Below are positions 40,169 to 57,973 of a stretch of DNA of 64,000 nt, piece by piece. A program made the translations under genes and the position numbers. Numbering within the stretch: the stretch's first letter is position 1; every line of letters begins with the position of its first letter. The stretch spans positions 1 through 64,000 of the forward strand of contig CALAMO010000035.1 in assembly GCA_937925855.1 (NCBI GenBank), read 5' to 3'. The notes beneath the pieces are model-generated. The model saw only the letters and a list, made by a program, of their open reading frames with translations. It was not told the DNA's origin and made no database searches. Source of the stretch: an uncultured Thiotrichaceae bacterium. Its GTDB lineage: Bacteria > Pseudomonadota > Gammaproteobacteria > Thiotrichales > Thiotrichaceae.

Positions 40169-40403
40169 CTTAGAGTATCGCCAGCGCCAATTTCACCAAG
40201 GTCATGGATGAGTGCGAGCTGGATCAGTTTGGGAATATCGTAATCTTCACTCAGATACTCGGCAAACGCCCAGCAGGCCATTGCAAGGTGCCAGGAATGT
40301 TCAGCGGAATTTTCGAGGCGATGACCGCCGTTGATGTAGCTGCGCCGCTCCACTGTTTTTAGTGCGTCGAGCTTTAGCAGGAAGTCAGTGATTTTTTAGT
40401 CAT
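40141..40403 (-). pseudogene. Truncated, frameshifted HD-domain phosphohydrolase (YfbR/HDDC2-like)
   Basis: The frame encodes FLLKLDALKTVERRSYINGG, AEHSWHLAMACWAF and LIQLALIHDLGEIGAGDT, the N-terminal half of an HD-domain nucleotidase with the HD metal motif. It then runs into unrelated codons where it meets the methyltransferase fragment. The ATG at 40403 is out of frame with the body; adding one base to the run of six T (40392-40397) would join them. The start lies 2 bases after the PIN toxin stop. A shorter product could start at an internal GTG at 40353. Confidence 0.65.
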
Positions 40404-40405
40404 GA

Positions 40406-40891: not shown

Positions 40892-41217
40892 GCCGGAAAC
40901 AGCTGTTCAAGTGTCTGTAAATCCTGCTCCAAATCATAATCAGCAAACGGAATATTGAGTTCGCCCAGTAGTTTTAAGGTCTGGTGTTTGTTTTTGTCTA
41001 AGGCTTCCGCAAGCTGACCGAGGCTAATATCACCGGCTTGAAAGGCTTTAATCACCATCCAGTGCCGAAAGCCATTTTCCATTAGACCATCACTAAACGG
41101 TAGCGCAAGGCCCAGTGGCTTGCCACGCCGCGTTATCAATGTGTATTCATCACTACCTAGCGACTTGCTCAGTTTGCCGGGGTTAGTCTGTAATTCTTTG
41201 ATGCCGATGGTGTTCAT
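40888..41217 (-). CDS. Chimeric Phd-like / UPF0175 antitoxin
   Basis: The 109-residue protein has two parts. Residues 1-45 resemble the Phd/YefM DNA-binding fold (IGIKELQTNPGKLSKSL and YTLITRRGKPLGLALP). Residues 50-109 resemble UPF0175 antitoxins (ISLGQLAEALDKNKHQTLKLLGELNIPFADYDLEQDL). UPF0175 proteins commonly pair with DUF3368 toxins; the Phd-like front could autoregulate the operon. The fusion is read directly from one uninterrupted frame. Domain identities are pattern-based. Confidence 0.75.
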   Translation of the reverse strand: MNTIGIKELQTNPGKLSKSLGSDEYTLITRRGKPLGLALPFSDGLMENGFRHWMVIKAFQAGDISLGQLAEALDKNKHQTLKLLGELNIPFADYDLEQDLQTLEQLFPA

Positions 41218-41318
41218 GTCTTCAGGTACTGCGTTAAGGGAGTACTTTAATTATAGGCGCACCTTTTTCTTAGTGCTACAACAATCGAACAGAAACAGCC
41301 GAATCAAGTGTAGGTGAA

Positions 41319-43166
41319 TTACTCCGTATCAATAAACCCACCAGACTGCCGATTCCAGAAGCTAGCATACAGCCCACCTTTTTCTTTCAGCTCCTCATGC
41401 GTACCCTGCTCGACAATCTTCCCCTGATCCAGCACCACAATCCGATCCATCTGGGCTATAGTCGATAGCCGGTGCGCCACAGCAATCACCGTTTTATTGT
41501 GCATCACGCTAATCAGGGATTGCTGAATTTCTGCTTCGACTTCGCTGTCCAGCGCACTGGTGGCTTCATCGAGAATCAGGATGGGCGCATCTTTCAAAAT
41601 GACCCGCGCCAGCGCAACCCGTTGCCGCTGGCCGCCGGATAATTTAACGCCACGTTCGCCCACATGTGCCTCATAGCCTTCACGACCTTTGCTATCGCGT
41701 AGCTCTTCAATAAAGCTATGCGCAGCGGCCAGTTTGGTGGCTGCAATCAGCTGTTCATCGCTGACATCCGTATGGCCTAACAGAATGTTATCTTTGACCG
41801 AGCGATTCAGTAGCGCCGCCTGTTGGGCAACCATGCCAATAGCCGCACGCAAGCTGTCCTGATCCACGTCGCGAATATCCTGGCCGTTTACCGAAATTGA
41901 GCCTTGTTCGGCCTCAAAGAAGCGCAGGATTAAATTAACCAGCGTAGATTTACCCGAACCGGAACGTCCGACCAGTCCGATCTTTTCGCCCGGCTTAATC
42001 GACAGTGAAATACCATCCAGACCCCCTTGCTTTTGACCATAGTGGTGTCTCAGGTCTTTGATCTCGATACCACCAGCGCCAACATCCAGCTCAGGTGTGT
42101 CATCTTCCTGTGGAATGGCAATCGGTTGCCCAATAGTGGTCAGGGCTTCGCGCAGTGAGCCGACTTGCCTGAAGACCCACCACACAGAATCCAAAATCCA
42201 GTCGGCCATGGTCGTGATACGCAGCGACAGTGCAATCATTGCCGATACTAAGCCGATGGTTGCAGCGTCAGTTGACCAGAGCCAGATGCCGTAGCCAATG
42301 AAACCGACCATGACCACGGCTTCCAGCATGATTAGGGTTGTCCATAGCGCGACACTAATCTGGCGTGTCTCAAACAGGCGTTGGCGTGTGTCCTCCAGAC
42401 GGGTATGCAGATCAGCGGCGATCTGGTTTCTGGGGGCAAACAGCTTCAGCGTATCGAAATTAGAAAATCCATCCACTACAGTCCCCACCAGCGCAGATTT
42501 TGCAGCTTGAAAGCGCCGCTGTGCATTAACCATGCGCGGAATCACCCAGGTCAGTATACTGATATAGAGACCGAGCCACAGCAACAGGGGCAGCGCTAAC
42601 CAGATGTCTGTGCCTGCCATTAACACCACGACGCCGATCATATAAACCAGACCAAAGCCAACCGCATTGATTGCCTTATACATAATGTCGGTGACGTGAT
42701 TACCAATATCGACCAGGCGACTTGAGGTTCTGCCCGACAAGTCCTCCTGAAACCACCCCACAGACTGTCGAATCAGATGGTCATAAGCCCGCCACCTGAC
42801 CAGGTTGGCGGCGTTACATTGCAATGAGATGTCGTTGACCGCGAGACGTAAAAACTGGGCAAGTGGCCGGAATAAAAACACGACTAGCGCGGCACCCAGC
42901 AAACCCCAGCCCTCGGTTTCCCAGAAATTCTCCAGCGAGCTGGCGGCGAGCGTGTCAATCACCTGCCCGGCATACTGAATTAACCAAACCTCAACCGCTG
43001 CCGCCAGTGCTGTCACTATTACGCTCGCAATTAAAATGCGACGTAGCGGTTTAAAGTGGGATTTTAGATAAGGCCATACGGTTGAATGTGGCGCAGCGCC
43101 CGATAAGTCGTAAGGATCTGTGGCGTTTAGAAAGAAGCGGGTAATGCGCTCGTATAAGCCTTTCAT
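41319..43166 (-). CDS. ABC exporter, fused permease-ATPase (MsbA/ATM-like)
   Basis: The protein (615 residues from ATG 43166, chosen for the AGGAAAG ribosome site) is a half-size ABC exporter. Six membrane helices lie in residues 40-320. The ATPase domain has Walker A GRSGSGKST, signature [14 protein letters not shown], Walker B ILILDEATSALD and the switch histidine in AVAHRLS. Homodimers export lipids, peptides or drugs. The substrate is unknown. It is divergent from the AGE-family gene by about 140 bases. Confidence 0.9.
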   Translation of the reverse strand: MKGLYERITRFFLNATDPYDLSGAAPHSTVWPYLKSHFKPLRRILIASVIVTALAAAVEVWLIQYAGQVIDTLAASSLENFWETEGWGLLGAALVVFLFRPLAQFLRLAVNDISLQCNAANLVRWRAYDHLIRQSVGWFQEDLSGRTSSRLVDIGNHVTDIMYKAINAVGFGLVYMIGVVVLMAGTDIWLALPLLLWLGLYISILTWVIPRMVNAQRRFQAAKSALVGTVVDGFSNFDTLKLFAPRNQIAADLHTRLEDTRQRLFETRQISVALWTTLIMLEAVVMVGFIGYGIWLWSTDAATIGLVSAMIALSLRITTMADWILDSVWWVFRQVGSLREALTTIGQPIAIPQEDDTPELDVGAGGIEIKDLRHHYGQKQGGLDGISLSIKPGEKIGLVGRSGSGKSTLVNLILRFFEAEQGSISVNGQDIRDVDQDSLRAAIGMVAQQAALLNRSVKDNILLGHTDVSDEQLIAATKLAAAHSFIEELRDSKGREGYEAHVGERGVKLSGGQRQRVALARVILKDAPILILDEATSALDSEVEAEIQQSLISVMHNKTVIAVAHRLSTIAQMDRIVVLDQGKIVEQGTHEELKEKGGLYASFWNRQSGGFIDTE

Positions 43167-43309
43167 TTCTGCTTTCCTGTGGCGGGAAATGTGTAAATTA
43201 TGATGCCCTCTGTAAACAATAATCAATCTACATCATCCAATGCACCTATTGCAGACGGCATCAAACTGACATACTACCATGCAAATTCACACGCACAGGA
43301 ACATTAGCT

Positions 43310-44530
43310 TTGAAAACGGCACGCACTGAACAAATGATAGTTAGTCACCAACCTGAGGCTGATGCGCCGATAGAGGATTGGGTCAACTGGTTCTGGGATT
43401 TTTTCCTGCCCAATTGGATTGAGCGTGCGCGTGATCCGGCTGGTTTCGGTTTTTTCGACCTGTTAGATGAACAGGCTCAACCCGCTCAAACGGATAGAAG
43501 AACGGTATTGGCACAGGCGAGGCTGTTGTTTACCTTTTCGCACCTTGCCCTGATTTCAAAGCAGCCGGTTTACCATGATGCTGCCCGCATTGCCTATGAG
43601 TCGTTATCAAAATTCCGCAAAGCGGCGGGTGCCTATTGTCGCGCACGCTCAGGACAGGGCGAAGCTAGCGGTGATGCGAATGATGACCTCGCCTACAGTT
43701 ATGATCAAAGCTTTGTGATTCTTGGTTTGGTCACCTGGGGATGTCTGCATCCCGATGCAGACGTTGAAGCAGAACTTGAAGCCTGTTGGTTTAATCTTAG
43801 CAGTCGGCTGACTGATGCTGCGACCGGTCTTTTGCTGGAACACGATGGCCTAACTAAACCGGCGGCGGCAGATGCCCCTTACCGCGCCCAAAATCCGCAT
43901 ATGCACCTGTATGAAGCGGCGCTCCAGGCTTATGAAATGACCGGGAATCCGGTTTGGCTGGCGCGGGCCAAACACATGCGTGCTAAAGGGCTGGAATATT
44001 TCTTTGATGCGGAGAGCGGCACCATTATGGAATTTCTGGCACCTGACCTAAGCCTCTTACCGGACTATCCCGGTCAGCGCCGTGAAATCGGTCATCAGTG
44101 TGAATGGGCGTGGTTACTGCTGCGTGAAGTGGCGCTGGGTGGGGATCAATCTCTGCAAACGGTTGCCGCGCAGCTGCTGGCGTTTGCGGATCAGTATGGC
44201 TTTGCGCCTGAGGGTGTTATGCGGGGGGCGGCATTTGATGCGGTGGCGGCTGATGTTAACCAGCGTGAAGAGCGCTTTTTGCTGTGGCCACAGACTGAGG
44301 CGATTAAGACCTATGCTATTCGTACAGCTGATGCTGACTATGCACAGCAGGGAAGGGCGCTGGCGTTATTGCTGTTCCGCCGTTATTTTAAGCGGCGGGC
44401 AGCATTTGTTAATCAGCTGGATGCTGAGGGTGTGCCGCTATGGCCGGATGCGCTGAGTCGCTTGCATTATCATCTGGTGCTGGCGTTTACCGAAGGCGCA
44501 CGGGCGGGGCTTTGGGGATATCCTGATTGA
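43310..44530 (+). CDS. AGE-family (N-acylglucosamine 2-epimerase-like) sugar epimerase/isomerase
   Basis: The 406-residue protein has the alpha/alpha-barrel pattern of the AGE family, with WVNWFWDFFLPNW, NPHMHLYEAALQAYEMTGNP and the catalytic-type histidine segment IGHQCEWAWLLLR. Members interconvert mannose/fructose, cellobiose/glucosyl-mannose, N-acylglucosamine/N-acylmannosamine or sulfoquinovose. The substrate cannot be chosen. It starts with TTG (43310). It lies at the edge of the AT-rich region. Confidence 0.85.
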   Translation: MKTARTEQMIVSHQPEADAPIEDWVNWFWDFFLPNWIERARDPAGFGFFDLLDEQAQPAQTDRRTVLAQARLLFTFSHLALISKQPVYHDAARIAYESLSKFRKAAGAYCRARSGQGEASGDANDDLAYSYDQSFVILGLVTWGCLHPDADVEAELEACWFNLSSRLTDAATGLLLEHDGLTKPAAADAPYRAQNPHMHLYEAALQAYEMTGNPVWLARAKHMRAKGLEYFFDAESGTIMEFLAPDLSLLPDYPGQRREIGHQCEWAWLLLREVALGGDQSLQTVAAQLLAFADQYGFAPEGVMRGAAFDAVAADVNQREERFLLWPQTEAIKTYAIRTADADYAQQGRALALLLFRRYFKRRAAFVNQLDAEGVPLWPDALSRLHYHLVLAFTEGARAGLWGYPD

Positions 44531-44972
44531 TTTACAAATGAGTTCATGACAAATAAACGGATCTTGACATATAACCCTAAATTGTCAGCATAACGTTGAT
44601 GATTGCGGGTTTTAATTTGCAATTTTGGAATAACGCTCCATAGATAAAATAAAAAAACAAGAGTAGTTACATAATTTCTTACAAAAAAGTTTGCCTGTAG
44701 ATCTATTTTGCTCTATCTTGGTGATCGAAATATAAAGCTACATCAGATGGGTACGGGCAAAGTACTCTATCAAGAGTGAAAGTTACTATCTGAAAGTATT
44801 TCTTTATTCAGTGGAATTGCTCCATCCAAGCATATTCCCAGTAAGAAAATCCCTACGCAGCTTACTTCTATCTACTGTTAAATCTTAAATAGAGCGCTGC
44901 ATTGTTTAACTCATATCAAATTCCATATCTGTTAGCTGACAAAGCTGCCAGGCAAGATTCGGGTGTCAATTT
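44531..44972. other. AT-rich intergenic region upstream of the giant NTPase gene
   Basis: This 442-base stretch holds no open frame of note. Composition becomes AT-rich compared with the gene before it and stays so through the next gene. A promoter candidate lies in it. I see no direct repeats or integrase remnant that would mark an insertion boundary. Confidence 0.6.
44708..44736 (+). promoter_or_regulatory. Candidate promoter of the giant NTPase gene
   Basis: TTGCTC (44708-44713) and TATAAA (44731-44736) are separated by 17 bases, matching 4/6 and 5/6 of the sigma70 consensus. The site would leave a leader of about 230 bases. In AT-rich DNA such matches can arise by chance. Confidence 0.3.
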
Positions 44973-47900
44973 ATGGCTGAAGAAAAACCAAACAATGCTG
45001 AAAATAAGAACTATAAATTTTCTGATTATCGCTTCCTGATCCCTTTTGGGCGTTATCGTTTAGATAATGAGCGTAATGTGGATAATGCTTCTGTTTATAT
45101 AGGCAGGGAAGGGCACAGAGCATTTTTAACAGAAGCCTTGAATGGTGGTGGCCGCCGTGGTGCCTTTCTAATTACTGGGCGGCGTGGCGTGGGTAAAACA
45201 ACGTTTGTTGAAAGTTGTATTGATGAATATGAAAATGCTACTTTTCGGCGATTTTTGCGCAGTAACTATGGACGTTCCGGTATAGACTTATTTATGATGT
45301 TAGGTCTTGCTGTTTTGAGTGTCATAATCCTTATTGTTTGCAGTAATTCGATTGAGATTTTGGCAGTTGCTCAAAAAGAAAACCCAATACTGTGGATACC
45401 TTTGTTGGCCTTGATTGCGATTGTATTGATTCCACTTATATATGGTTTTTTTATATTAAACACAGTTGTTGAACATTATAGAGTAAGTTTCCAACAAAAT
45501 CAACATATTGGTGCAGAAGAGAAGTTGGTTAAACGCTTTTATGATCACTTAGGTGTCGTTGCCGCAAATGTTCCAAGTATTGTTGTAACAATTTTAGTAT
45601 CTATTGGTTTCTTTTATCTAATCTATTGGTATGAGCCATTTGGTGCACCTACCGAAAGCATGAGTAGGTTATTGTTAATGCTCAGTTTTGTTGGCATTTT
45701 CTCTTTGTTTTTTCACAGAAAAAAACCTAAACACCCAGTAAAAAACTTCACTTATAATTTTTTTGTTTTATTATTATCTTTTGGAGTCGCTCTTGGTTTT
45801 TTTGGTGAAAATGAATATGCAGATGATAATTTAAAATTGGTTTCAGATATATTATTACGCTCAATTTTTATTGGTTTTTTGGTTATCTTATTAACTTTTT
45901 TGATAAATTTTATAAAAATGTCTGGCTCCGAAGAAAAAGTTATTCCTGAGAAAGAACTATTTAGAATGGGATTTGTTAATTCTTTCGGCGCATTAATTTT
46001 TTTTCTAGTCATAGTGTATATGCTTTTCCCACTATTTTTAGGTGGCAGCCTGCTTGAAGGCATTCTGCTTTATTACTATCTTCCATTAGCTTCAATTGCA
46101 ATTATTTTAGCGGTAGCTCTTTCTTATTTCATTATTTTAAAGGTTGATATTTTTTCTGATTTTAGGAAAAAATTAAAATTTAGATATTATGTTCCTCCAA
46201 TAGAAGCTGTAATCATCACTAAGGTTTTTTTGTTATTTTTAATTAGCTGTCAATTAATATATCCTATATTAGGCGCATTGAAACCCACTGAATGCGATTC
46301 TGCAATTAATAATAAAAATATTTTTATTTTTGAAAGTGGACTATGTCTCAATAAAAATGAATTATACAATGGATATATTCATTATGAGGCTTTTAAGAGT
46401 GGGAGGCCTAAAAATCTATGGATTAAAAATTCAAGTTCAATGAGTTATTTTTCACTTGAAAGCGATTCTGATAGATATAATACGAACAAGCCTCTTTACT
46501 ATACATTGTTTCCATCTGATTCATTGGAGGAAATATATTGGTTGTTTTTAGTCGTTTTTATTTCAATAGTCCTTTATTATATAGAATATGAGTGGATATG
46601 TCGGCCTTATATTGCTCAAAGGCAAACAAATGTATTGGATAATGGGCCAAGACTTAGAATACAAACGCAGCATGATTTTGATCCTGTTTGGCAAGAAACA
46701 GAATATATTGATGGGAGTGACAAAGCAAATTCTGTTTTTAATGAAAAACAAAATTTAGCGTCAGAAGGCTTTCGTAAGCTCGAACGCACTACTTATGTTT
46801 ATCTGCTTTGTTCTTTTTGGATGCCATCTATTGTTGCCAAAATCAACCTTGGTTTTGATGCGCTTGATCATCGTGGTGTTATTCATTCGATGCTTTATAG
46901 TTTAAGGCAGGAGTATAATAATAAATTGCTTAGTTGGAGATCTCCCTACTATTTATTGATAAAGTTGATTTGGGTATGTATGCTGATCTTTATCTGCTCT
47001 TTAATAGGTAGAAATGCATTAGATTTTCCAGAAATAAATAAAAATACAATTAACAAGAAAGATGGGATCTATGTTACATCTGACGATCTGACATTGGATT
47101 ACTGCCAGTTAATTATCAACCATAAAATTCCAGTCCAATATAGCGAAAATATGTTAGTTGAAGGTGCATGCTCTTCATTTCCAAGTTTGACTAACACTTT
47201 GGTTCCTGCTTTTTACTATACTTTGTTAGAGATTCCGGTTTGGGAGGGATCAAATATAACAGAACACTTTATAGAGTATTTTTTGCACTATAATCATGGC
47301 TTGCCAATTATGGAAAGAAGTTATAAAAGTAATTATAAAAAATTTGAAATTAAACAAAATCAATCTCTTAATTTGAGGGTATATCATATCTTGACTTTCA
47401 TTCTATTAATTTGGTTTGGAAAAAAATTATCAACTTGGATTAACTTCTTTCCATACAAAAAAACTTTTGATGAAATCAACGAAATTATTGATGATCTCAA
47501 CATGAGAAAAAAAGAGAGCAGGAGGACTGGTCGCTGGTCTCCAGTCCATTTTTCGAACAAGGCATTCGGTAAAGAAGTTGAGGCGGAATTTTCAAGAGAC
47601 GAACGTGACCCAAGAGCGATTGAGCTGAATTTCCTTAACTTGTTAGAAAGAATGCAGAACAATACCATTAAAATTCCTTTTGTACTTTCTGGCAGAATCA
47701 GCGTCCCCACACCTGAAGTGCATTTCATTTTTGATGAGTTAGATAAAATTACTGGGATGGTGGGCACCAATACTATCTCACCAGAAACAAATGAAGCAGA
47801 ACGCAGCTTGATTCAAGATGAGCGCCGCCGAGCGTTTGCTTTACATAGCTTATTGTCTGATATGAAAAGAGTGATCTCATCAGCACCTGCTCGGTTTATG

Positions 47901-50900
47901 TTCGTTGGAAGCCGCATGCTGCATGATGAATGGATGGCAGATCAGGGTAGGCGCCAACCTTTACTTTCTAGTATATTCGATGCAGAAATTTACTTACCCT
48001 CCTTAATGTTAGATCTACCGCGTTCCGCTACAACAAAAGCAAATAAACCCAGAACTGATTATAAACTTACTTTCCGTATAGAAGAGTATTTACTGCGAAC
48101 GCACAATAGCTCAAGGAAGCTATATCAACAAATGGTACGCACACGATTTTCGCCGTTTTATGCATTGCCTAGCCGAGATAATTCTAAAGCGCAATTCTAT
48201 GAATCCAGATACGATGAAACGTTAAGAGACAAGCTCCGCAAAGAGATGTTTATTACTATTTCCTGTCCAAATTTTTATCTAGAAGTGGATAAGGGAGAGA
48301 AGTTCAATGGCTTTATTGATGAATTTATAAATTTTCTTACCTATCGCAGTGCAGGAACACCTAAAAAAATAGATGAGATTCTGTCTAGTTTTATGCGACA
48401 GTCTGCACACTTTACAAAGCCTGATACGAAACATCGTTATACTAAACTTCCTTGTCGGGATGTATTAGCACTAAATGATCGAGAGATATACCGCATCCAA
48501 TTTATCAATGATTTATTTAAACATTTGTTAGATAAATTTGAAACGGTATTAGTTGATCGTGATGATAAGGTCTCTGTTAATATTATTTATCTGTTTGATT
48601 TCTTGATGAAATTTCATCAAAGAGCATTTAGCTGGAGCAGCTTAGATCGAATTGATGAATTATCTCATATGCACAGGGCACCTGATATACGCACGATGTT
48701 TGAGGAGGTGGTTGAAGAAAGCGCAGAGAAAATGCTACATAAGATTTTTCATGGCCTATATGCCTACAGATTCAGAAGTGATTTTTCCGCCGAAGTTAAG
48801 TACTTATCGCGACGTTCTAAACCCGAAATGGCTGCTTTTAATTTCACATTAGACGAGTCCCAGGAATTAAAAGCTATTTATACTTCTTTATTGGATATAC
48901 AGGGTACTTCTAACGTTGAGGTTATTGAGGCACTGGGTGAGCTACACGAGTATGATCAGGCCTATGAAACAGCGCGCGGATATTATGAAAAAGCGCTTAT
49001 GCTCCATGATGAGAAATTTGGGCGCTATATGGGGAATAGCGTTGATATAGAAGATGTTATTACCGAAGGTTACAAGGGTGCAGCAGAAGGGTTCAAAAAT
49101 CAGCGGAGCTTAGATAATATCAATACCTCTGACTTAGGTAACCTTGCGCAGTTAATGACTAATGTGCCGCCGCCAGATCGTGTGCCATTTATTAAAGCTA
49201 TTATGATGCATGACAAAGAGGCAATTAAGGATACTACATTTTTTGTGCCTTGGATTGTGCGCCGTGTCAGACTAATGTTGCAAATTGGGCTGACCTTTGA
49301 GCTTGAGTTAGATTTTGAACGTGCTCAAGCGCATTATCATGCAGCTAACTGGTTGACTAGGGCCGCTACTGAAGCTGCCTTCCCTATGCAGCAAGATAAT
49401 GCGGATGGACTAAGTGAAGATAATAGGTTTTGGGCACAGAGTTACTTCAAGCATATTGCGACGCTACTACTACAGCCGATTTTTTCTGAGGCTTGGATTG
49501 CTGAAAAGGTTGAGGCCGCTGTTGATACCAGTGCGGGTATGGTTGAGTCTTACCTTATTGATGTACGCAAACGTTTCCCCTTCTTAAATGAGACAGATGC
49601 AACTCAAGACCTTAGTCTGAAAAAATATATTATGAATGATGGTTCTGCCACTAATAAAGGAGCCATCGGCGGTTCCAATTTTGCTTTGCTAGGCGCCGAT
49701 TTGCATAATAAAGCAGGTGATCTTTATTTCTTTAAAGGTAGAGATTCACTTTCAAAAGATGTTGATTCAATTTTCGCAGCTGAAAAATCAGATTCTGGCT
49801 TGTATGTTCGTAGAGCGGGTTATCTGTTGCGTGCGCAGTATCATTATGCTGTCTCATTACATGAATTAAGGCGTTTTTCTTGCTATCGTACCAGTACGTC
49901 TGGTTTGAAATTCAACACTTTGAATGGTTTAAGCACCTTTGAAAAGGGTTCGCATACTACCTACGAAATGCAATCATTTGCCGATAAGTTTTTTGATTTT
50001 AATGAAGCACATGTTTCGAGGATATCTATTGATCATTTAATCAGCCATTCTAGTTATACTCAAGCTGAAGTAATTAAGCCTTTGTTATCAGATGAATCTA
50101 TTGATAAATTCTATGAAACCATGAAGGCTTGGTTATCACTACCTGATGAGGAAACTGTGCTTGCTAAGTACTTGTCTGATAATGTGGAAGACCTTAACCT
50201 TGTTGAAAGAAATTTATATGAGCGTTTAGGTTACTGGTCTTTATCTCCTGAAGACTATGGTCTTACAACTAACATAGAAAATAGCCTGTCGGACAACTAT
50301 TTCTCTATAGTAAAGTTTACAGAAAACGTTAGTTCTGTCGATACACTGATCAGTTCGTTACTATCATCATTGTGTGCGGCTAGGCTTTTAAGTGAGGCGG
50401 GTTTCTATGTTTCAGCGACTAACGAGATACAAATTGTTCTTCAACATGTATTATGTTACTTGAAATGGTTGAGAATAAAAATATTGCTTGAGTGTGAATC
50501 AAACGAACAGAAAGCAAGACATATTGTGAATATTGGCTTGTTATTGGCTAAGATTGCAGTAAAAGCTTTTGCTGAGCACGACAGTTATTTCTTGCTCTCA
50601 AATAATGAAAATGTGGGTAGAAAAGTATATCCAGTTAAAATTTCTAGCTTGGCTTTAAGTCTGTGCGAATTTTTAAATGCCTTTTATATAAATGCTGAAG
50701 CTCTTGATTGTATAGATGCTGCTGCCGAAACCAAATACTATCTTGAAGAGGTTTTTGCTAATTACTTAATTAAATACCAAGGTGATTTTTCTTTTGGTGA
50801 TGCTGTTTGTTTTTCAGAAATTGACTTTTCCAATCAAGAAAATATTTCGGATTTCATGATAAAGCGCTATAAGTACCCCGCTTTGGAAAACATGATTATG

Positions 50901-51338
50901 TTGAAGAATAAAATCGATAATTGCATTCTTTGTTCAATGGAGCAAGGGACAAGGAGTACTATTGGCCCAGACATGGATAACTTGAAAGCAAAGCTAAAGA
51001 GCTGGTTTGAAGAGCTGCGGGATGTAGAAAAACGCTTTGATGCCGCTATGTTATTTTCTCCTTCGATGCTAGCTGAAACGGCCTTCTTGATGTGGAGATA
51101 CCATGAAAATGACGCTGAACAGGAGCGCTATAGAAAAATTGCGCTAGTGCAAGTTCGGCGGGCTATCCAAATGTTTACCCAGGGGCGGGAATACTATAAA
51201 ACTATATCAAAGATGTATTATCTGTTTGATGAATTTAATGACCGCACTATCCATGCAAACCATGCGATACAGATGGCGGGTGCTGATATGCTAATGATGT
51301 TTGAACAGGACTTGACTAAGAAAAAAACATCATCATAG
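44973..51338 (+). CDS. Giant membrane-integrated split P-loop NTPase with TPR-like C-terminal region
   Basis: The 2121-residue protein has Walker A GRRGVGKT at residues 69-76. A huge insertion follows (about 100-830) with roughly twelve hydrophobic helices (near 104-124, 139-161, 201-219, 232-247, 262-277, 293-312, 335-356, 362-388, 411-433, 521-537, 658-677, 801-815). The NTPase then resumes: Walker B FIFDELD at 918-924, a sensor-1-like ARFMFVGSR at 973-981 and a Cdc6/STAND-like lid motif AGTPKKID at 1127-1134. Two long non-membrane loops carry cysteine pairs (441/458 and 711/733), which would suit disulfides if periplasmic. Residues 1300-2121 are alpha-helical with a TPR-like unit near 1316-1346. 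Membrane helices inside the P-loop domain recall KAP NTPases, but size and helix number are far larger. I cannot name a family. A signalling or defence role is inference. Confidence 0.85.
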   Translation: MAEEKPNNAENKNYKFSDYRFLIPFGRYRLDNERNVDNASVYIGREGHRAFLTEALNGGGRRGAFLITGRRGVGKTTFVESCIDEYENATFRRFLRSNYGRSGIDLFMMLGLAVLSVIILIVCSNSIEILAVAQKENPILWIPLLALIAIVLIPLIYGFFILNTVVEHYRVSFQQNQHIGAEEKLVKRFYDHLGVVAANVPSIVVTILVSIGFFYLIYWYEPFGAPTESMSRLLLMLSFVGIFSLFFHRKKPKHPVKNFTYNFFVLLLSFGVALGFFGENEYADDNLKLVSDILLRSIFIGFLVILLTFLINFIKMSGSEEKVIPEKELFRMGFVNSFGALIFFLVIVYMLFPLFLGGSLLEGILLYYYLPLASIAIILAVALSYFIILKVDIFSDFRKKLKFRYYVPPIEAVIITKVFLLFLISCQLIYPILGALKPTECDSAINNKNIFIFESGLCLNKNELYNGYIHYEAFKSGRPKNLWIKNSSSMSYFSLESDSDRYNTNKPLYYTLFPSDSLEEIYWLFLVVFISIVLYYIEYEWICRPYIAQRQTNVLDNGPRLRIQTQHDFDPVWQETEYIDGSDKANSVFNEKQNLASEGFRKLERTTYVYLLCSFWMPSIVAKINLGFDALDHRGVIHSMLYSLRQEYNNKLLSWRSPYYLLIKLIWVCMLIFICSLIGRNALDFPEINKNTINKKDGIYVTSDDLTLDYCQLIINHKIPVQYSENMLVEGACSSFPSLTNTLVPAFYYTLLEIPVWEGSNITEHFIEYFLHYNHGLPIMERSYKSNYKKFEIKQNQSLNLRVYHILTFILLIWFGKKLSTWINFFPYKKTFDEINEIIDDLNMRKKESRRTGRWSPVHFSNKAFGKEVEAEFSRDERDPRAIELNFLNLLERMQNNTIKIPFVLSGRISVPTPEVHFIFDELDKITGMVGTNTISPETNEAERSLIQDERRRAFALHSLLSDMKRVISSAPARFMFVGSRMLHDEWMADQGRRQPLLSSIFDAEIYLPSLMLDLPRSATTKANKPRTDYKLTFRIEEYLLRTHNSSRKLYQQMVRTRFSPFYALPSRDNSKAQFYESRYDETLRDKLRKEMFITISCPNFYLEVDKGEKFNGFIDEFINFLTYRSAGTPKKIDEILSSFMRQSAHFTKPDTKHRYTKLPCRDVLALNDREIYRIQFINDLFKHLLDKFETVLVDRDDKVSVNIIYLFDFLMKFHQRAFSWSSLDRIDELSHMHRAPDIRTMFEEVVEESAEKMLHKIFHGLYAYRFRSDFSAEVKYLSRRSKPEMAAFNFTLDESQELKAIYTSLLDIQGTSNVEVIEALGELHEYDQAYETARGYYEKALMLHDEKFGRYMGNSVDIEDVITEGYKGAAEGFKNQRSLDNINTSDLGNLAQLMTNVPPPDRVPFIKAIMMHDKEAIKDTTFFVPWIVRRVRLMLQIGLTFELELDFERAQAHYHAANWLTRAATEAAFPMQQDNADGLSEDNRFWAQSYFKHIATLLLQPIFSEAWIAEKVEAAVDTSAGMVESYLIDVRKRFPFLNETDATQDLSLKKYIMNDGSATNKGAIGGSNFALLGADLHNKAGDLYFFKGRDSLSKDVDSIFAAEKSDSGLYVRRAGYLLRAQYHYAVSLHELRRFSCYRTSTSGLKFNTLNGLSTFEKGSHTTYEMQSFADKFFDFNEAHVSRISIDHLISHSSYTQAEVIKPLLSDESIDKFYETMKAWLSLPDEETVLAKYLSDNVEDLNLVERNLYERLGYWSLSPEDYGLTTNIENSLSDNYFSIVKFTENVSSVDTLISSLLSSLCAARLLSEAGFYVSATNEIQIVLQHVLCYLKWLRIKILLECESNEQKARHIVNIGLLLAKIAVKAFAEHDSYFLLSNNENVGRKVYPVKISSLALSLCEFLNAFYINAEALDCIDAAAETKYYLEEVFANYLIKYQGDFSFGDAVCFSEIDFSNQENISDFMIKRYKYPALENMIMLKNKIDNCILCSMEQGTRSTIGPDMDNLKAKLKSWFEELRDVEKRFDAAMLFSPSMLAETAFLMWRYHENDAEQERYRKIALVQVRRAIQMFTQGREYYKTISKMYYLFDEFNDRTIHANHAIQMAGADMLMMFEQDLTKKKTSS

Positions 51339-51343
51339 ATGAT

Positions 51344-51380
51344 ACCACAGCCGCATCGATCCTATCGATGCAGCTGTGGT
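51344..51380. terminator. Long hairpin terminator between giant gene and DUF1501 gene
   Basis: A 17-bp stem with one mismatch (ACCACAGC.GCATCGAT / ATCGATGC.GCTGTGGT) and a three-base loop lies between two convergent genes. Position and stability suit a bidirectional terminator. Confidence 0.7.
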
Positions 51381-51394
51381 AAAATTCACTGAAA

Positions 51395-52609
51395 TCAGCT
51401 GATACCCAAATAAGAAGGTGCGGTATAATCTGGAAAAATTTGCGGTAGCAAATGAGCTTTACCCACACGGTTAGCGATAATCTCAGACAGCACCTGCCGG
51501 TAGTCTGTTGTGGTTTTCAAATCACCGTATTCTAATCTTCTGAGGCCCGGCCAAGTGCCATAGATAGTACCACCGTTAATGCCTTGTCCCATCACCATTA
51601 ACGCACCGCCGGTACCGTGTTCGGTGCCACCACTATGATTTTGCTCAACCCGCCGTCCAAATTCGCTCATGACTACCAGCGTGACATTTCTGTTACTGCG
51701 CATGGCTTCTTGGTGGAAGGCGGCTAGTGAAGTGCCTAGCATGCTAAATAAATTATGGACATTACCCGCATCCCAGGTGCCCATGTCATCGTGTGTGTCC
51801 CAATGTTCCATGGTGACGTGAGCCACTTCGAGGCCAATATCCGCATGGATCAACTCCGCCACCTGATGCAGCTTATTGCCGATCAGGCTATCACCGTAAG
51901 CGGCTGGTTTTGGTGTAGAACCAAGCGCTCGTGCAGCGGCAAATTCTAGTGCCGCTGTGGCCTGGCGGGCCTGCACGGCTAGCATAGGATGGTCTGTGCT
52001 GCCTGCATACATCTTTGTGATTGCATCATTACTGCCTGGCGTCGCATTTAGGCGAAATTCGGCTAGATTTCTGATGCCGGGGACATTGTCATAGCCATTA
52101 AATATGCGCGATAAATTGCCCATGCTAACGCCTCGGAATATGGCGTTATTGGCAGAGGGCACATTTAAATAGCGGCCCAGCCAGCCGTCGGTGCGGGCGT
52201 GATCGTCGCTGCCAGACTGGAGGCGAATTTGCCCGTCGAAGTGGCTGCGGGTTACTGACCGCTCACCCAAGCCTGCTGCGACGACAAAAGCCAGATCACC
52301 GAGTTGATAGATTTCATGCAGTGGGCTTAATGCTTTGTGCAGCGCAAATTGGCCGTTCAGATCAATTCGGCCTCTAGCCGGAATAGCAATGTTGGGACGT
52401 TTATCGAAATAAACGGCTTCATGGTAGGGAACTAGTGCACTTAGGCTATCCATTCCTCCCAATAAATTGACGACAACCAGCGTGTGATTGCTACTGCTCG
52501 GTGATGCTGCATACACGTTATGGCTTAAACTACTCAGCGCCGGAAGCGCTACACCGGCTGCTGCCATGCCTTTGAGGAAATGGCGGCGTGATGAATGATT
52601 GTTATTCAT
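51395..52609 (-). CDS. DUF1501 protein, Tat-exported
   Basis: The 404-residue protein starts with a Tat signal (SRRHFLKGMAAAG) and belongs to DUF1501, a sulfatase/alkaline-phosphatase-like fold group. Metal-ligand-type segments are visible: NLLGGMDSLS near the start, and HWDTHDDMG and EFGRRVEQN further on. The function is unknown. It is preceded by a DUF1800 gene, its usual partner, with 16 bases between them; both would be co-exported in folded form. Confidence 0.87.
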   Translation of the reverse strand: MNNNHSSRRHFLKGMAAAGVALPALSSLSHNVYAASPSSSNHTLVVVNLLGGMDSLSALVPYHEAVYFDKRPNIAIPARGRIDLNGQFALHKALSPLHEIYQLGDLAFVVAAGLGERSVTRSHFDGQIRLQSGSDDHARTDGWLGRYLNVPSANNAIFRGVSMGNLSRIFNGYDNVPGIRNLAEFRLNATPGSNDAITKMYAGSTDHPMLAVQARQATAALEFAAARALGSTPKPAAYGDSLIGNKLHQVAELIHADIGLEVAHVTMEHWDTHDDMGTWDAGNVHNLFSMLGTSLAAFHQEAMRSNRNVTLVVMSEFGRRVEQNHSGGTEHGTGGALMVMGQGINGGTIYGTWPGLRRLEYGDLKTTTDYRQVLSEIIANRVGKAHLLPQIFPDYTAPSYLGIS

Positions 52610-52625
52610 ATTTGATGACTCCCGA

Positions 52626-54197
52626 CTAACGAAGCTGAAATGAAGGTGTAGCCAGAATTAAACCGGCTACAATCGGAAGTTCATCCCGATGTTTTGCTTT
52701 TACCTGATCATTGGCTTGCTTACCCAGGTAGCTATAAATTGCCTGACGTTCTACTGAGGATAGACGGTGCCCTAACAAGCGGATGGAAAGCTGATTAATT
52801 AAATCTTTAAATTTTGCTGGGCGTGGGCCGATCAGTTGATTGATATCAACTCTAAAACGTTTTGTCCAGGTATTTGCCATCAGTGCAAAACCAAAGTTCC
52901 AACGATTACTCATTGCATTGGTATCTAAATACTCCGCTGCAATCAGTGGATAACCGTTGGGTTGGGGGTATTCAAATAGCCTATGATTCAACTTACCCAG
53001 TTGAGTGACAAGATCTTTACTGGTTAAGAATAAGTTGCGATCTAAATCTATACTGGTATTAGTAGCACGCAGCATAGAATAAAATATTTCATTACCGCGT
53101 TTTACTTTTTGCCCTTTGGCTTGATTAAAACGATTCGAGTAAAGAATGGTGCGCAATACAGGCGCAATCGCTGTATCGTGCTTAAGGAATGTTCTTGCGG
53201 CGCTTTTGACCAGCGGATCATTGGCTGTAATCGTGTCATCAACAAAGTAGCGGCATAACTTCCAGCATATGAAACGAGCCGTACTGCGATGGCGTGCTAA
53301 AAATCTAACCAATGACTCGCCGTTCCGAATGCTGCCTCCGCGTGCAACAGGTCGCCAACCTAATATGTTAGCACCTTTAACCAGTTTAGGCCCCAAGCTA
53401 TTATGATGTCTATTAAATTTGAAAGTGAAGGTTTCGTGGCTAGATGACCAACCACTCATTACATAAGCAACGTTTAATATATCTTCTTCTTTATAACCAC
53501 CATCGACACCGAGAGTGTGCAACTCCATAAACTCCCGTGCGTAATTTTCATTGGGAATAGTACCGTAGCTGGCTTGGCTTTTATCATTGTCCAGGTATTC
53601 CATCATAGAACCGCTTTTAGCTGAAGCCATGAGTAGGTCACTGAATTTTCCCAGTGCGAAGCGGCGAAACTGTGCATCTTGTTCTATCTTCTGAAAGCAC
53701 ACCCAGTCTTTTGTCATGTCAATGTTAAAATGATTGCTCCAAAAATCGACCATAACTTCCTGTAGTTGGCGATGGCTGTGCAAGGCGCGTAAGACCGTCA
53801 CAGCCGGAATATCAAGCAGTATTACCTCCTGGGTTCTGGTGTCAAAACGTTCTCTGGGGGACTGCTTTAGCGTTGGGTAATACCGGTCAAGTATGTTTTC
53901 CAGTTCTGAATCATCGATTGCAGCAGGGTTGAGCTGCCGTTCAATAAACGCTTCATTACCTATTGCTTTAATCTCAGTAACTAATTCAGGGGTAACCCCT
54001 AAGGTGGTACGCCGTAAAATATGCAGGTGTTTGCCAATTTGTGGATTGTTAGATTCGTCGGCCTGAGCATTGCCAGCAGCCAATGCACTGCTGCTTGTAC
54101 CTATTCCTACCGCCACCTTATTAAAAAAATTACGACGCGAAGGGGAGGCAGGCGCAGCTTCTAAATTTGGCCGCTCCTCATGTGTATAACTAACCAT
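52626..54197 (-). CDS. DUF1800 protein, Tat-exported
   Basis: The 523-residue protein carries a Tat-like signal with a longer N-region (SPSRRNFFNKVAVGIG, residues 19-34) and the DUF1800 body: HILRRTTLGVTPE, VMVDFWSNHFNID, NENYAREFMELHTLGVDGGY and SNRWNFGFAL. DUF1800/DUF1501 pairs are widespread in bacteria, but their job is not established; secretion or a surface-polymer role has been suggested. It heads the two-gene operon; its leader lies in AT-rich DNA. Confidence 0.85.
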   Translation of the reverse strand: MVSYTHEERPNLEAAPASPSRRNFFNKVAVGIGTSSSALAAGNAQADESNNPQIGKHLHILRRTTLGVTPELVTEIKAIGNEAFIERQLNPAAIDDSELENILDRYYPTLKQSPRERFDTRTQEVILLDIPAVTVLRALHSHRQLQEVMVDFWSNHFNIDMTKDWVCFQKIEQDAQFRRFALGKFSDLLMASAKSGSMMEYLDNDKSQASYGTIPNENYAREFMELHTLGVDGGYKEEDILNVAYVMSGWSSSHETFTFKFNRHHNSLGPKLVKGANILGWRPVARGGSIRNGESLVRFLARHRSTARFICWKLCRYFVDDTITANDPLVKSAARTFLKHDTAIAPVLRTILYSNRFNQAKGQKVKRGNEIFYSMLRATNTSIDLDRNLFLTSKDLVTQLGKLNHRLFEYPQPNGYPLIAAEYLDTNAMSNRWNFGFALMANTWTKRFRVDINQLIGPRPAKFKDLINQLSIRLLGHRLSSVERQAIYSYLGKQANDQVKAKHRDELPIVAGLILATPSFQLR

Positions 54198-54600
54198 ACA
54201 GTTATTCCTTTGTATTAAAGGTGATAGGAAAAATATGAATAAGTACCTACATAAAGCTAATTTATATTTATTTCTATTACATTATTTTTATCTTAGGTAA
54301 TCTAAGGAAGATACTAAGAAAACAGCATTATCAAAGCAGCGGGACTTATTTGCTAATTAAAAATATTAATAGCGTAAATTAAAATTTATATTCCTCTTTG
54401 TTGATTTTAAACTGTGCATTTATTAGTCTATTTCCAATATAAAAATGACCGAATGTCGGGAATAAAATAGTTTTTATCGGAATTTTTTATATTTAAAAAA
54501 AGCTGGTCGATAAAAATAAGCCGTTTATCAATTGAAAACCAATCTGTATTATAAACGAGCCAAGTCTGAACAATAGTCATTTTATGTACCGTACCCATAT
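54198..54600. other. AT-rich non-coding region upstream of the DUF1800 gene
   Basis: About 400 bases without a convincing gene. It contains a nested inverted repeat at 54471-54516 and presumably the promoter of the DUF1800-DUF1501 operon. Its AT content matches the preceding island rather than the later genes. Confidence 0.55.
54471..54516. repeat. Nested AT-rich inverted repeat
   Basis: TTTTTATCG (54471-54479) is mirrored by CGATAAAAA (54508-54516), enclosing a second T-run/A-run pair. It could form a cruciform, bind a dimeric regulator or terminate transcription. Confidence 0.45.
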
Positions 54601-54639
54601 GGTTTGTGTGGCTGTTCTAGAGTGCTGCTGGCCGCTATG

Positions 54640-54991
54640 CGGTTACTCGTCAGCGGGCAATGACTGCCGCTGCTGGTGATGTGCCTGCTGGTATGCCGCT
54701 ACTTTATCCGCTGTTTATACTATCGCTGCGGACGACTACGGCGCAGAACCCAGTTTGATTAGGCTGTTGGAATCGATTCTGGGCTCACTTTGGGTCGGGG
54801 CTGTGCTGGCAGAAGCACCTACGCTACAAACTCTGTTTGCTGGTTTGCTGATTGTGGGGACGCTGGCGGTCTATGGGGTATTGCTGGTGCGCGCTAAAAA
54901 TTGGGGCGTCAGTTTGCGCCATGCTGAACAAAAAACAGTGTTAAACGGGCGCAGAAGTCACTCCGCGCCCGTAACAAACCTCCTCTCCTGA
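54640..54991 (+). pseudogene. Frameshifted C-terminal remnant of an EamA/DMT transporter
   Basis: One frame gives PLLYPLFILSLRTTTA; after a frame change near 54745, another gives EPSLIRLLESILGSLWVGAVLAEAPTLQTLFAGLLIVGTLAVYG. Together they read as the last three helices of an EamA-family exporter (the usual pattern is A-A-E-x-S-L-I-x-L-L-E). The N-terminal helices are missing. A complete EamA gene is found at 58.2 kb, but this remnant is not obviously a copy of it. Confidence 0.6.
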
Positions 54992-55000
54992 GGTATTTTT

Positions 55001-57973
55001 CTACGCAAACGGCCCCTTAGCCCCATAAGCCTCCATATTGCGCGCATAACAATTACTGCTCTTCACCAACTCAGCACCATAACGCTCAATCAACACCTGG
55101 CGTCGTACCGGATCTTTTGTCGCTGCCACCGCACCCCAAAACGCTGCCATTGCTTCCGCCAGCGCACGCATTTCAGCCAGGGTATCGTCACAGCCCGCGA
55201 TATTCGCTAAGTCCTGCCCGGTCACTTTACCGACGCCATTAACCGTTTTAGCGCCTGCCGCCGTGTAACCCTTCGGCAGATCGCCTTTCAGGTTGGTCAC
55301 CGACTTATACTGAATCACATCAAACAGCTGATCCACCGCCTGCTTCGCGCCTTCCACGCGGGAAACATGTTCGGTATCCGCCGCCGCATGGGGCAGCAGT
55401 TCCATCTTGCCGCGATGACGCTCTTCCATCGCACGGTACGGTACCATCGGCCCGGACAGCTCACCGTTCTCAGGATTCACAAACAAATCCGCATCAATAC
55501 AGGCATAGCGCACCTTGCCGCTACTTAGTGCGTTATCCAGTGCATCCGGTTCAATAATTTCACCCCGATCATAGTTCACCACCACCGCGCCATCATTTAA
55601 CGCGCTCAGGACTTCACCATTCACCAGATTAGCATTAGCAAACACGCCGGTATCCGCGTTCAACGCACCCAGACCGGTATGCGGGCTAATCACATCCGCG
55701 CCGCGTGCTGCGTCCACCGGTGTGGCGGCGTAGGTAAAGCCTTCCGACTCAATCCAGGCCTGATGCTGTGGGCGGGCGTAGATACTGACCTGCATGCCAA
55801 ACGCCTGCGCCAGCTTGGCGAACTCGCGCCCGATATTACCATAGCCAATCACCGCCACGCGCTTGCCTTCCAGCTTCTCGGTTGGGTATTCACACAGGTT
55901 CTTGCCGGTATCAAACTCACCCTCAACCACCCGGTCATGTAAGGCTTGCACCGGTAGGTCGGGCATTACTTTCAGCAGCGCTTTCATCGCCATTTGTGCG
56001 GTGGCACGCGAGTTAAAGCTCGGCGTGTTCATCAGTGGCGCAATACCACCGTCGCCGTTACCGCCACCCCAGCTGGCGCTGCCCATATTGCCGGTACCGG
56101 CACCAATGCGCACGCCGCCGAGGTCAAACCGTGCGGCTGAGGGCAGGAAAGTCGCCGCCACAATCGTGGCGTCATACTGACCGTCCGCTGTGTGTTGCAG
56201 CAGCTCATCTTCCCGACTCAGGTTCGGCTCATAGAAGAAGTGAATCTTGCCGCTTTCCAAATCCTGTCCGGCGGTCATGGCACTTTCGTGGAACACGCCG
56301 CCTTTCGCCTGCACATGCGCCCGTACTGCGCTGTGATCCGGTTTGCCATCGGCATCAAACTTCAGGCCAACCAGGTCGGCGACCAATACTTTATAAGCGC
56401 GGTTTGGATCATCCTGGCGCTGTGGCCTGCTGCCGGTATTTGCTGCCGCTTCAAAACTCACGCCCTGTTGCGCCAGCATTTCTTCCAGCTTGACAATTTT
56501 GGCGCGGTGATAGGCGTATTCCAGATTATTCAGCAGCGCGATAATGTCACTGTCAGGACGCACCCCGCCGATCCAGGCGCGGTAATCACCCGGCGTGCCG
56601 GGAAAGGCATTCACATAACGCGCCACATCCAGCCCCGGCTCGTATTCACCATTGGGGTGCGTCAGGCCTTCATAAGCCAGCAGTTGCTTGGATTTAGCGA
56701 TAATGTCCGCATGCACCGCCGGATCCGTAATATCCGGGTCGTTGACTTTCAGCAAGGTAACTGCCGCGCCGCGACTGGCACTATCCACGACACCCGGCTC
56801 CAGCAACTCACTGCTTGCCAGCCAGTCATTAATCGTCTGGCGATTCAGCGCGGAACGCCGATTGACTTCCTGCACGCCGCCAATGTTCTTTTCGACCCGC
56901 AGCAGGCCAAAGGTGGTTTCCGCAAAGGCCAGCGTGCTGAAGGTGTTAATAATGCCACCCTGCATGCTGTCGGTTTCCGGGTTGTAGATTGGGCCGAGGT
57001 CAGTGGTGTTTTCGCTCGAAAGCGGACGCTTTGCATCGGTTGGTACCGCGATTTTAAGCTGACGTGCAATGGCCCAGGACGGGTCTTGCATATTGCGATT
57101 AATGAGCGCCAGCGCCTGTGGGGTGAAGGCGCTGATCCAGTAGCCGGAAATGCCGCCAATCGCTTTCTGGAACGGGGTGAAGAGGCAGCATTTGTCCATC
57201 ACTTGATCCACCGTTGCCTGCGTCCACGGCATGGCGCCCAGCATCGAGGTGCTGTCGATAACGGCGTGATGATGCTCCGGGTCGGCATCAATCCAGCTCA
57301 GCAGATTAAGCATGTCTGCTTCGGTGTAAGTGGTCGCGCCAGTGGTTTCATGACCCACACCAAGGAAGAGAGTGATGCCCATGGCCTGTAGTTCGGCTGC
57401 CGCCGGTATATGGCCTTCGCTATCGCTAAAATGGATGCGGCTTTCGTCGCCGTTTTTGGCGTAGCGCTGCATTTCCAACAGCTGCGCGCCCCAGGACTGG
57501 CGGAAGAAGCCACCGGCCTGGGCGGCTGCGCTTTCGGGGCGCGGTGTATCGACGAAGACCTGCTGACTGCCATTAACCGTCATTAGATGCTGCGCACACA
57601 CGGTGAAACCGCTGTGGCCGCCACCCAGACCGACCGCCATTTTATTCTTCTTAGCGAAGCCGAAATAGCGGTGAATCTCACGCATCATATCGACCAGCAC
57701 TTTATCCGCCGGGTAACCCCGGTGCATACCGCGCCCAAACTCAGCGGTGGTGAAACTGCCGACGCGATTGCCTTTGTCATCCAGCTTGGGATAGTTTTCC
57801 TCTAGCCAGCGATCAAATTCCAGCCGCAGCTGACGTGCATCCCTTTCATCCCGCGTCATATCGGTAATCGGGCCAACGCCAAAAAACGGGTTGATGGTTC
57901 TTGCCGGTGGGCCATTGCGGGTTTTATCGAGTGAGGCCTGACGCTGCGCCTGGAGCGCACTGATGGAAGACAT
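55001..57973 (-). CDS. Fused SerC-like aminotransferase and SerA-like dehydrogenase
   Basis: The 990-residue protein has three parts. Residues 25-500 are a fold-type I, class V aminotransferase resembling phosphoserine aminotransferase, with GHETTGAT (208-215), the PLP aspartate in AVIDSTS (D240) and the Schiff-base lysine in FQKAIGG (K270). Residues 525-890 are a D-2-hydroxyacid dehydrogenase of the phosphoglycerate-dehydrogenase type, with GYGNIG (710-715), catalytic arginine R803 and histidine H862, and an acidic residue likely in DADLFVNPE. A helical tail follows. Such a fusion would catalyse consecutive oxidation of a 2-hydroxyacid and transamination of the keto acid, as in serine synthesis. 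Whether 3-phosphoglycerate is the substrate is not certain. It has a 220-base leader with hairpins. Confidence 0.82.
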   Translation of the reverse strand: MSSISALQAQRQASLDKTRNGPPARTINPFFGVGPITDMTRDERDARQLRLEFDRWLEENYPKLDDKGNRVGSFTTAEFGRGMHRGYPADKVLVDMMREIHRYFGFAKKNKMAVGLGGGHSGFTVCAQHLMTVNGSQQVFVDTPRPESAAAQAGGFFRQSWGAQLLEMQRYAKNGDESRIHFSDSEGHIPAAAELQAMGITLFLGVGHETTGATTYTEADMLNLLSWIDADPEHHHAVIDSTSMLGAMPWTQATVDQVMDKCCLFTPFQKAIGGISGYWISAFTPQALALINRNMQDPSWAIARQLKIAVPTDAKRPLSSENTTDLGPIYNPETDSMQGGIINTFSTLAFAETTFGLLRVEKNIGGVQEVNRRSALNRQTINDWLASSELLEPGVVDSASRGAAVTLLKVNDPDITDPAVHADIIAKSKQLLAYEGLTHPNGEYEPGLDVARYVNAFPGTPGDYRAWIGGVRPDSDIIALLNNLEYAYHRAKIVKLEEMLAQQGVSFEAAANTGSRPQRQDDPNRAYKVLVADLVGLKFDADGKPDHSAVRAHVQAKGGVFHESAMTAGQDLESGKIHFFYEPNLSREDELLQHTADGQYDATIVAATFLPSAARFDLGGVRIGAGTGNMGSASWGGGNGDGGIAPLMNTPSFNSRATAQMAMKALLKVMPDLPVQALHDRVVEGEFDTGKNLCEYPTEKLEGKRVAVIGYGNIGREFAKLAQAFGMQVSIYARPQHQAWIESEGFTYAATPVDAARGADVISPHTGLGALNADTGVFANANLVNGEVLSALNDGAVVVNYDRGEIIEPDALDNALSSGKVRYACIDADLFVNPENGELSGPMVPYRAMEERHRGKMELLPHAAADTEHVSRVEGAKQAVDQLFDVIQYKSVTNLKGDLPKGYTAAGAKTVNGVGKVTGQDLANIAGCDDTLAEMRALAEAMAAFWGAVAATKDPVRRQVLIERYGAELVKSSNCYARNMEAYGAKGPFA

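Follow-up and report, generated by a model that had tools for sequence, protein, structure and literature searches.

The window analysed here, a stretch of 64,000 nucleotides from contig CALAMO010000035.1 (GenBank assembly GCA_937925855.1) of an uncultured Thiotrichaceae bacterium, contains a gene for a protein of 2121 residues (the window protein). Judged from its sequence motifs, it belongs to the ASCE class of P-loop nucleoside triphosphatases (NTPases), which is AAA_16/Orc/STAND/KAP-like. Profile comparison indicates that its NTPase domain is interrupted by two predicted membrane insertions, of about ten and of two helices, which flank the β2-α2 unit of the domain. The protein thus contains one NTPase domain in three pieces, all predicted to be cytosolic, and this domain shares a common descent with forms that have two helices or none. 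The first-pass annotation of the window had described a single NTPase core split by one membrane insertion of about twelve helices between Walker A and Walker B. The helices were recovered by hydropathy, loop charges and homologues, and the core is found contiguous in a homologue, but the single insertion has to be replaced by two.

The gene is an open reading frame (ORF) with an ATG start and no internal stop. Walker A (GRRGVGKT) occupies residues 69-76 (positions 45177-45200) and is followed by Walker B (FIFDELDK, 918-925), a sensor-1-like motif (ARFMFVGSR, 973-981), FDAEIYLPSL (1002-1011) and SAGTPKK (1126-1132), the last overlapping the lid-like AGTPKKID (1127-1134); the sensor-1-like and lid-like motifs were read off the sequence. 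The motifs of this P-loop ORF stand in the order and at the places that had been reported for them. The second-half motifs (Walker B, sensor-1-like, FDAEIYLPSL-type and lid) recur in all six members of the family described below. All six have Walker A, an acidic Walker B with an extra glutamate, a sensor and a lid in this order, which is the arrangement that defines the ASCE class. A chance Walker B-like motif was considered and ruled out because the motif recurs in 6/6 members and is contiguous with the other motifs in the G162 member.

Three members of the family, including the window protein, are long. A homologue of 2527 residues in a metagenome-assembled genome of Cohaesibacter (Alphaproteobacteria; L002) matches residues 15-2111 of the window protein with 38% identity in the full alignment. 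It is the one confirmed relative among 13 candidate stretches from a pattern-based scan of genome_contigs (one genome per species), a scan that detects close relatives only. The third long member, of 2336 residues, comes from another class (genome G506; L019) and nearly fills its contig of 7.6 kb. Across 398 genomes of the phylum, a profile search gave matches in five, namely the own genome, G506 and three weak ones (G686, G724, G730); the weak matches were dropped, since in our own reading their ORF start and P-loop look DnaX-like. In the class, 4 of 369 genomes matched: the own genome, G162 (L009), G109 (L010) and G111 (L011). These three relatives are shorter proteins, that of G109 being cut by a contig end.

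In the G162 member, of 1258 residues, Walker A (64), NLG (108), Walker B (221) and GNPKR (390) all lie within about 330 residues, and the chain between these motifs is free of predicted helices. In the G109 and G111 members a pair of helices separates NLG from Walker B, and the stretch from Walker A to NLG contains none. All three long members, which represent three lineages, have helices at both sites together with all the motifs. At the first site we counted 10 helices in the window protein, 9 in G506 and 12 plus a weak one in L002, compared with none in any of the three short members. The ten-helix insertion has so far been seen in the three giants only, and the two-helix site is common to two of the short relatives. 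Two stretches aligned between the profile of the long members and that of the short members: one (543 columns, E 2e-34) covers residues 829-1512, from Walker B to the start of the tetratricopeptide repeat (TPR)-like tail, and the other (62 columns, E 1.1e-7) lies at Walker A.

A plain hidden Markov model (HMM) of the β2 block of the short members was too weak to place this unit in the long ones. Its scores did not exceed 0.9 bits; NLG ranked first in the window protein and in G506 and second in Cohaesibacter, with a score below zero in each case, and a search in the opposite direction recovered NLG in one of the three short members. A windowed profile comparison was therefore run, in which 60-column windows of the long alignment (319 windows) were slid against the profile of the short members' β2 block. 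The best seven windows scored 20.1-20.6 and all contained residues 625-627, the NLG of the window protein. The eighth, which starts within the block, scored 12.6, and the median was 7.3. Since this NLG falls between helix ten and helix eleven, the NTPase appears to be interrupted on both flanks of the β2-α2 unit. This suggests that an NTPase fold can accommodate a large membrane insertion on either side of a single strand-helix unit. Within the family the same NTPase occurs with no, two or about twelve helices, a natural series that could serve to tell the shared machine from what the helices contribute. Membrane helices within a P-loop domain are rare, and the titles and abstract openings of the literature searched described no ten- or twelve-helix insertion in such a domain.

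Hydropathy analysis predicted ten helices between residues 106 and 539 (106-124, 144-162, 193-211, 229-247, 259-277, 293-311, 338-356, 370-388, 418-436 and 521-539), and two more, at 661-679 and, less strongly, at 798-816. In 500 shuffles of the sequence, the mean number of windows of at least 1.6 was 4.2 and the maximum 10, compared with 11 observed. Hydropathy alone is a soft control for so hydrophobic a protein, and the assignment of the helices is accordingly based on their clustering, the loop charges and the homologues. The inner loops (11-30 residues) contain 4, 5, 4 and 7 lysine and arginine residues and the outer loops (13-19 residues) 1, 0, 1 and 0, which fits an N-terminus predicted by the positive-inside rule to lie inside. 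This topology predicts a cytosolic location for Walker A, for residues 546-657 and for the whole chain from about 822 onward, in agreement with the cytosolic placement of the NTPase switch proposed earlier, and residues 437-520 and 680-802 would form two large outer loops.

The conserved domain that follows the lid is probably a winged helix, a name given from its position and pattern. For the tail, which had been annotated as helical and partly TPR-like, the TPR-like character was upheld at its start: the family profile matched designed TPR proteins with an E value of 8.9e-5 for the whole chain, with no individual repeat significant. Residues 1641-1960 are the fastest-varying stretch, with 18-22% identity as against 36-51% from Walker B to the lid, and the end of the tail is again conserved (33-38%). 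The TPR-like start and the fast divergence are as expected of a recognition region. Against the PDB, the A3 profile gave no match below E 0.46, and the hits obtained with the window protein itself (E 0.03-0.04) were judged to be due to chance.

We tentatively propose, with slightly less than even confidence, that the window protein is an ATP-binding switch whose NTPase comes together from three pieces at the cytosolic surface of the membrane, with the TPR-like tail as input, the membrane part as output and a defence-like role. Of the components of this proposal, a membrane-wired NTPase switch is likely, and phage defence as its purpose is plausible. The domain would assemble from the Walker A half, the β2-α2 unit and the Walker B-sensor-lid half, and the chain would cross the membrane about ten times between the first and second pieces and then twice between the second and third. 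Because both membrane blocks start and end at the NTPase core, the membrane domain would be pulled on directly when the nucleotide site passes from its resting to its activated state. ATP hydrolysis would drive the switch. The variable TPR-like tail would bind a cytosolic trigger and free the switch, probably with oligomerisation, and the membrane part may then act as a gated channel or disrupt the membrane, like membrane-linked STAND or KAP defence proteins. It is we who infer the ATP hydrolysis, the direction of signalling and the defence purpose. As a precedent, the KAP protein Tmn, a membrane NTPase with two unusual transmembrane domains, is described in PMC11846954 as inhibiting several phages by an unexplored mechanism. 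A bolder extension, possible though doubtful, is that membrane domains were gained stepwise at two points of one P-loop domain (none, 2, about 10 + 2), wiring the nucleotide site into a channel-like membrane domain, and that the giant would act by itself, as a membrane executioner in phage defence encoded by a single gene, and the family would be a new one of NTPase switches.

Several results weigh against this proposal. The G162 member has no helices between its motifs, so that a membrane effector cannot be the shared function of the whole family; the common function must be cytosolic and the membrane part an added module. The count of nine helices in G506, obtained with the same hydropathy measure, is odd and would place the β2 block outside, and the model requires that a tenth helix went undetected in that protein. 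AlphaFold2 with two-row alignments gave no usable model (mean predicted local distance difference test score 31.7 for residues 1-1200 and 34.0 for 1290-1660). PADLOC assigned no family to the window protein, L002, L009 or L011, and one weak family to L010 (E 7e-4), L019 being outside that scan. No relative was found in plasmid and phage collections by tblastn, nor in viral contigs by five pattern scans. The neighbourhoods of homologues, which had been suggested as a place to look for defence islands, were surveyed through seven ORFs near relatives (2-oxoacid dehydrogenase acyltransferase, PIN-like, SpoU methylase, enolase, response regulator, LysR regulator and MTTB); these are mostly ordinary and include no defence-island marker. 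Finally, no experiment on this protein was found.

The main rival is a periplasmic sensor, in which the membrane part is the input: the outer loops, of 84 and 123 residues, would detect a signal in the periplasm, which the NTPase and tail would relay inward to a partner. The two large outer loops are suggestive of such a function, and as the helix-free member shows the shared function to be cytosolic, the added helices may serve input or anchoring. Cysteines had been pointed out as pairs in two loops, and both pairs are present. In favour of a sensor, cysteines occur in the second loop of all three long members (C711 and C733 in the window protein, four in each of the others), C711 being aligned in 3/3 and C733 in 2/3. 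Against it, the pair of the first loop, C441 and C458, is not conserved, as neither of the other long members has an equivalent. Moreover, the insertions are only 19-29% identical among the long members, compared with 36-57% from Walker B through the end of the winged-helix-like domain, and ten helices with mostly short loops would be many for an anchor. We regard an envelope sensor as rather unlikely on balance.

Profile searches against the KAP, STAND and AAA families, as called for by the first-pass annotation, gave AAA_16 as the best fit and no significant similarity to KAP beyond the Walker motifs. AAA_16 was the best Pfam match, with 34.4, 33.3 and 32.7 bits for L009, L010 and L011 against a cut-off of 32.6; in the G162 member the match of 34.4 bits spans residues 37-232. 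In the three long members it stayed under the curated cut-off (residues 43-96 of the window protein, E 6.1e-5). STAND switches run in the order of NTPase, winged helix and repeat tail. The family may likewise resemble the AAA_16/Orc-Cdc6/STAND group (PF13191 and neighbours) in the order of its NTPase, probable winged helix and putative repeat tail with a TPR-like start. We know of no AAA_16/Orc/STAND protein with membrane insertions inside the NTPase domain. MalT, a STAND protein represented by one sequence and hence a weaker control, aligned only around the P-loop (32 or 56 columns).

In plan the family is closest to the KAP NTPases, a likeness that had been noticed before. As in some KAP proteins, helices lie between Walker A and B within the P-loop domain, in both insertions of the long members and in the two-helix inserts of G109 and G111, and the Walker B DELDK resembles the DDLDR/DELDR of KAP, with a similar run of motifs at the FD..P and GNP[RK] stretches. 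In KAP proteins the helices are known from a single site. None of the seven KAP sequences used had a hydropathy window of at least 1.5 between Walker A and B. The differences are also evident: all seven read WG.GK, whereas the Walker A of the family (GRRGVGKT or GYRGVGKT) has no tryptophan, and the family has a long TPR-like tail. According to the two papers, Tmn has two helices (PMC11846954) and Kidins220/ARMS has four membrane fragments flanked by Walker A and B (PMC10707181), as against about ten plus two at two sites here; Tmn was compared by description, not by sequence.

That the family is a true but extreme member of KAP is unlikely in our estimate. The profile of the seven KAP proteins aligned collinearly with that of the six members (222 columns, E 6e-9) and with that of the short members (306 columns, E 7.6e-9), and in a search of the six sequences an HMM of the same proteins took G109 (14.1 bits), G162 (11.0), G111 (7.4) and G506 (5.8), though not the window protein or L002, over the inclusion threshold. 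In the genome search with Pfam KAP_NTPase (PF07693), the G109 member reached 31.2 bits against a cut-off of 20, across its helices, and the four-fragment arrangement of Kidins220/ARMS offers a precedent. Against this, DnaX-like proteins gave a comparable E value (5.3e-9) from 43 columns of the P-loop alone. When the Walker A half was removed, the KAP alignment collapsed to 15 columns at Walker B with a probability of 4.8% (score 27.5, compared with 9.7-18.2 in 30 shuffled-column controls). PifA, a protein that excludes T7, served as a positive control; the KAP profile matched it with 7.7e-29 over 323 columns, and the window-protein family only at the P-loop, with a probability of 5.6-7.0%. No significant similarity beyond the Walker motifs was found in the comparisons of family and KAP profiles. 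Nor did hmmscan give a KAP match at E up to 1 for the window protein, L002, L009, L010 (the G109 member) and L011 or at E 0.001 for L019, and the Pfam genome search found none in genomes G000 and G111 (G162 and G506 being outside that search). For the first three of these reasons the family, although built like KAP in plan as far as its sequence tells, was not filed as KAP, and plain KAP membership was rejected. Separately, G039, G067 and G103 contain open frames that run to about 1690-1910 codons and match KAP_NTPase weakly; these are possibly further giant P-loop proteins.

The gene is rare and patchily spread. Among 57 relatives, and among 63 genomes of the order, it was found in the own genome only. 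Likewise, only the source genome itself matched in the classes to which Cohaesibacter (289 genomes) and G506 (48 genomes) belong and in the orders of G162 (11 genomes) and G111 (4 genomes); these draws of genomes overlap. The AT-rich island that had been noted around the gene was seen again, with a G+C content (GC) of 0.33-0.39 in five 2-kb segments wholly within the gene. The flanks have 0.48-0.52 (four segments at 40001-45000) and 0.43-0.49 (four from 51001 to 56000), and the low-GC stretch therefore fades across the next two genes. GC at third codon positions (GC3) is 0.21-0.47 by gene region, compared with 0.40-0.65 in seven neighbours. Together with a tRNA-Val gene near the Cohaesibacter member, the patchy spread and the low GC3 count in favour of the proposed switch. 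The genes around it in the window are of ordinary kinds and comprise one resembling a GlcNAc epimerase, a DUF1501/DUF1800 pair, an ABC transporter and a PIN/UPF0175 pair. The surroundings and the spread form the pattern of a single mobile gene rather than of a defence island.

These data bear on the second rival, an ATP-driven transporter or channel of the cell's own, with the split NTPase as motor, the tail as regulator and no defence role. Ten closely spaced helices joined to the NTPase at two seams, and surrounding genes that were mostly ordinary where scanned, would suit it. The patchy spread, the low GC3, the relatives with two helices or none and the lack of any transporter among the Pfam matches of the window protein at E up to 1 argue against it, and we consider it distinctly improbable. 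An assembly or fusion artefact that wrongly joined two genes, raised as a caution in the first-pass annotation with no data in its favour, is refuted by the homologues and hardly conceivable, since the same composite occurs as one uninterrupted ORF in each of three genomes of three lineages.

Table 1. Coordinates of the gene, of the predicted parts of its product and of an adjacent hairpin (positions in the window)
Feature	Residues	Positions	Strand	Basis
Whole gene, membrane-inserted P-loop NTPase (2121 aa)	1-2121	44973-51338	+	Single ORF; full-length homologues in L002 and L019
N-terminal block and Walker A half	1-104	44973-45284	+	AAA_16 match; long-versus-short profile match (E 1.3e-11, 73 columns)
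Insertion 1, predicted, about ten helices between α1 and β2	105-545	45285-46607	+	Hydropathy, charge pattern, homologues
First large outer loop, predicted (84 residues)	437-520	46281-46532	+	Hydropathy and loop charge
β2-α2 block, predicted cytosolic piece between the insertions; INLGFDALDHRG at 624-635	619-657	46827-46943	+	Windowed profile comparison
Insertion 2, predicted, two helices with 123-aa outer loop	658-826	46944-47450	+	Same site as two-helix insert of G109 and G111 members
Second large outer loop, predicted, with C711 and C733	680-802	47010-47378	+	Cysteines also in the other two long members
Second NTPase half	911-1150	47703-48422	+	Motifs recur in 6/6 members; long-versus-short profile
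Conserved domain after the lid, probably winged helix	1151-1310	48423-48902	+	57/160 columns invariant in three long members
Tail opening with TPR-like unit	1311-2121	48903-51335	+	Family profile versus designed TPR proteins
Hairpin between the convergent window-protein and DUF1501 genes, possibly terminating both		51343-51381	.	Fold of 51336-51400: -29.3 kcal/mol, z -7.9

Around the gene, no convincing mobile-element ends were found among flanking repeats, and promoter-like sites were at chance level (24 compared with 26.1 expected). The upstream epimerase has no close counterpart in eight genus mates (five weak partial matches of 29-36% identity, three without any), and an empty site is therefore not demonstrable. 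tRNA genes are common landing sites of islands, and a tRNA-Val gene (L002 9434-9508) lies 0.5 kb upstream of the Cohaesibacter homologue. A PIN-like gene under the Pfam cut-off (L011 6306-6788) lies 0.25 kb upstream of the G111 homologue. The hairpin downstream of the gene is absent from the list of three terminator-like sites.

Elsewhere in the window, overlapping genes for a PIN-domain protein and a UPF0175/Phd-like protein on the minus strand (40406-41217) probably form a toxin-antitoxin pair, and the PIN protein matches the PADLOC candidate models PDC-S70. The DUF1501 and DUF1800 gene pair (51395-54197, minus strand) lies where GC recovers, and its DUF1501 protein has a twin-arginine translocation (Tat) signal. 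An ORF of 990 residues on the minus strand (55001-57973) fuses a phosphoserine-transaminase-like part (226-492) with a D-3-phosphoglycerate-dehydrogenase-like part (647-892), which correspond to two steps of serine synthesis.

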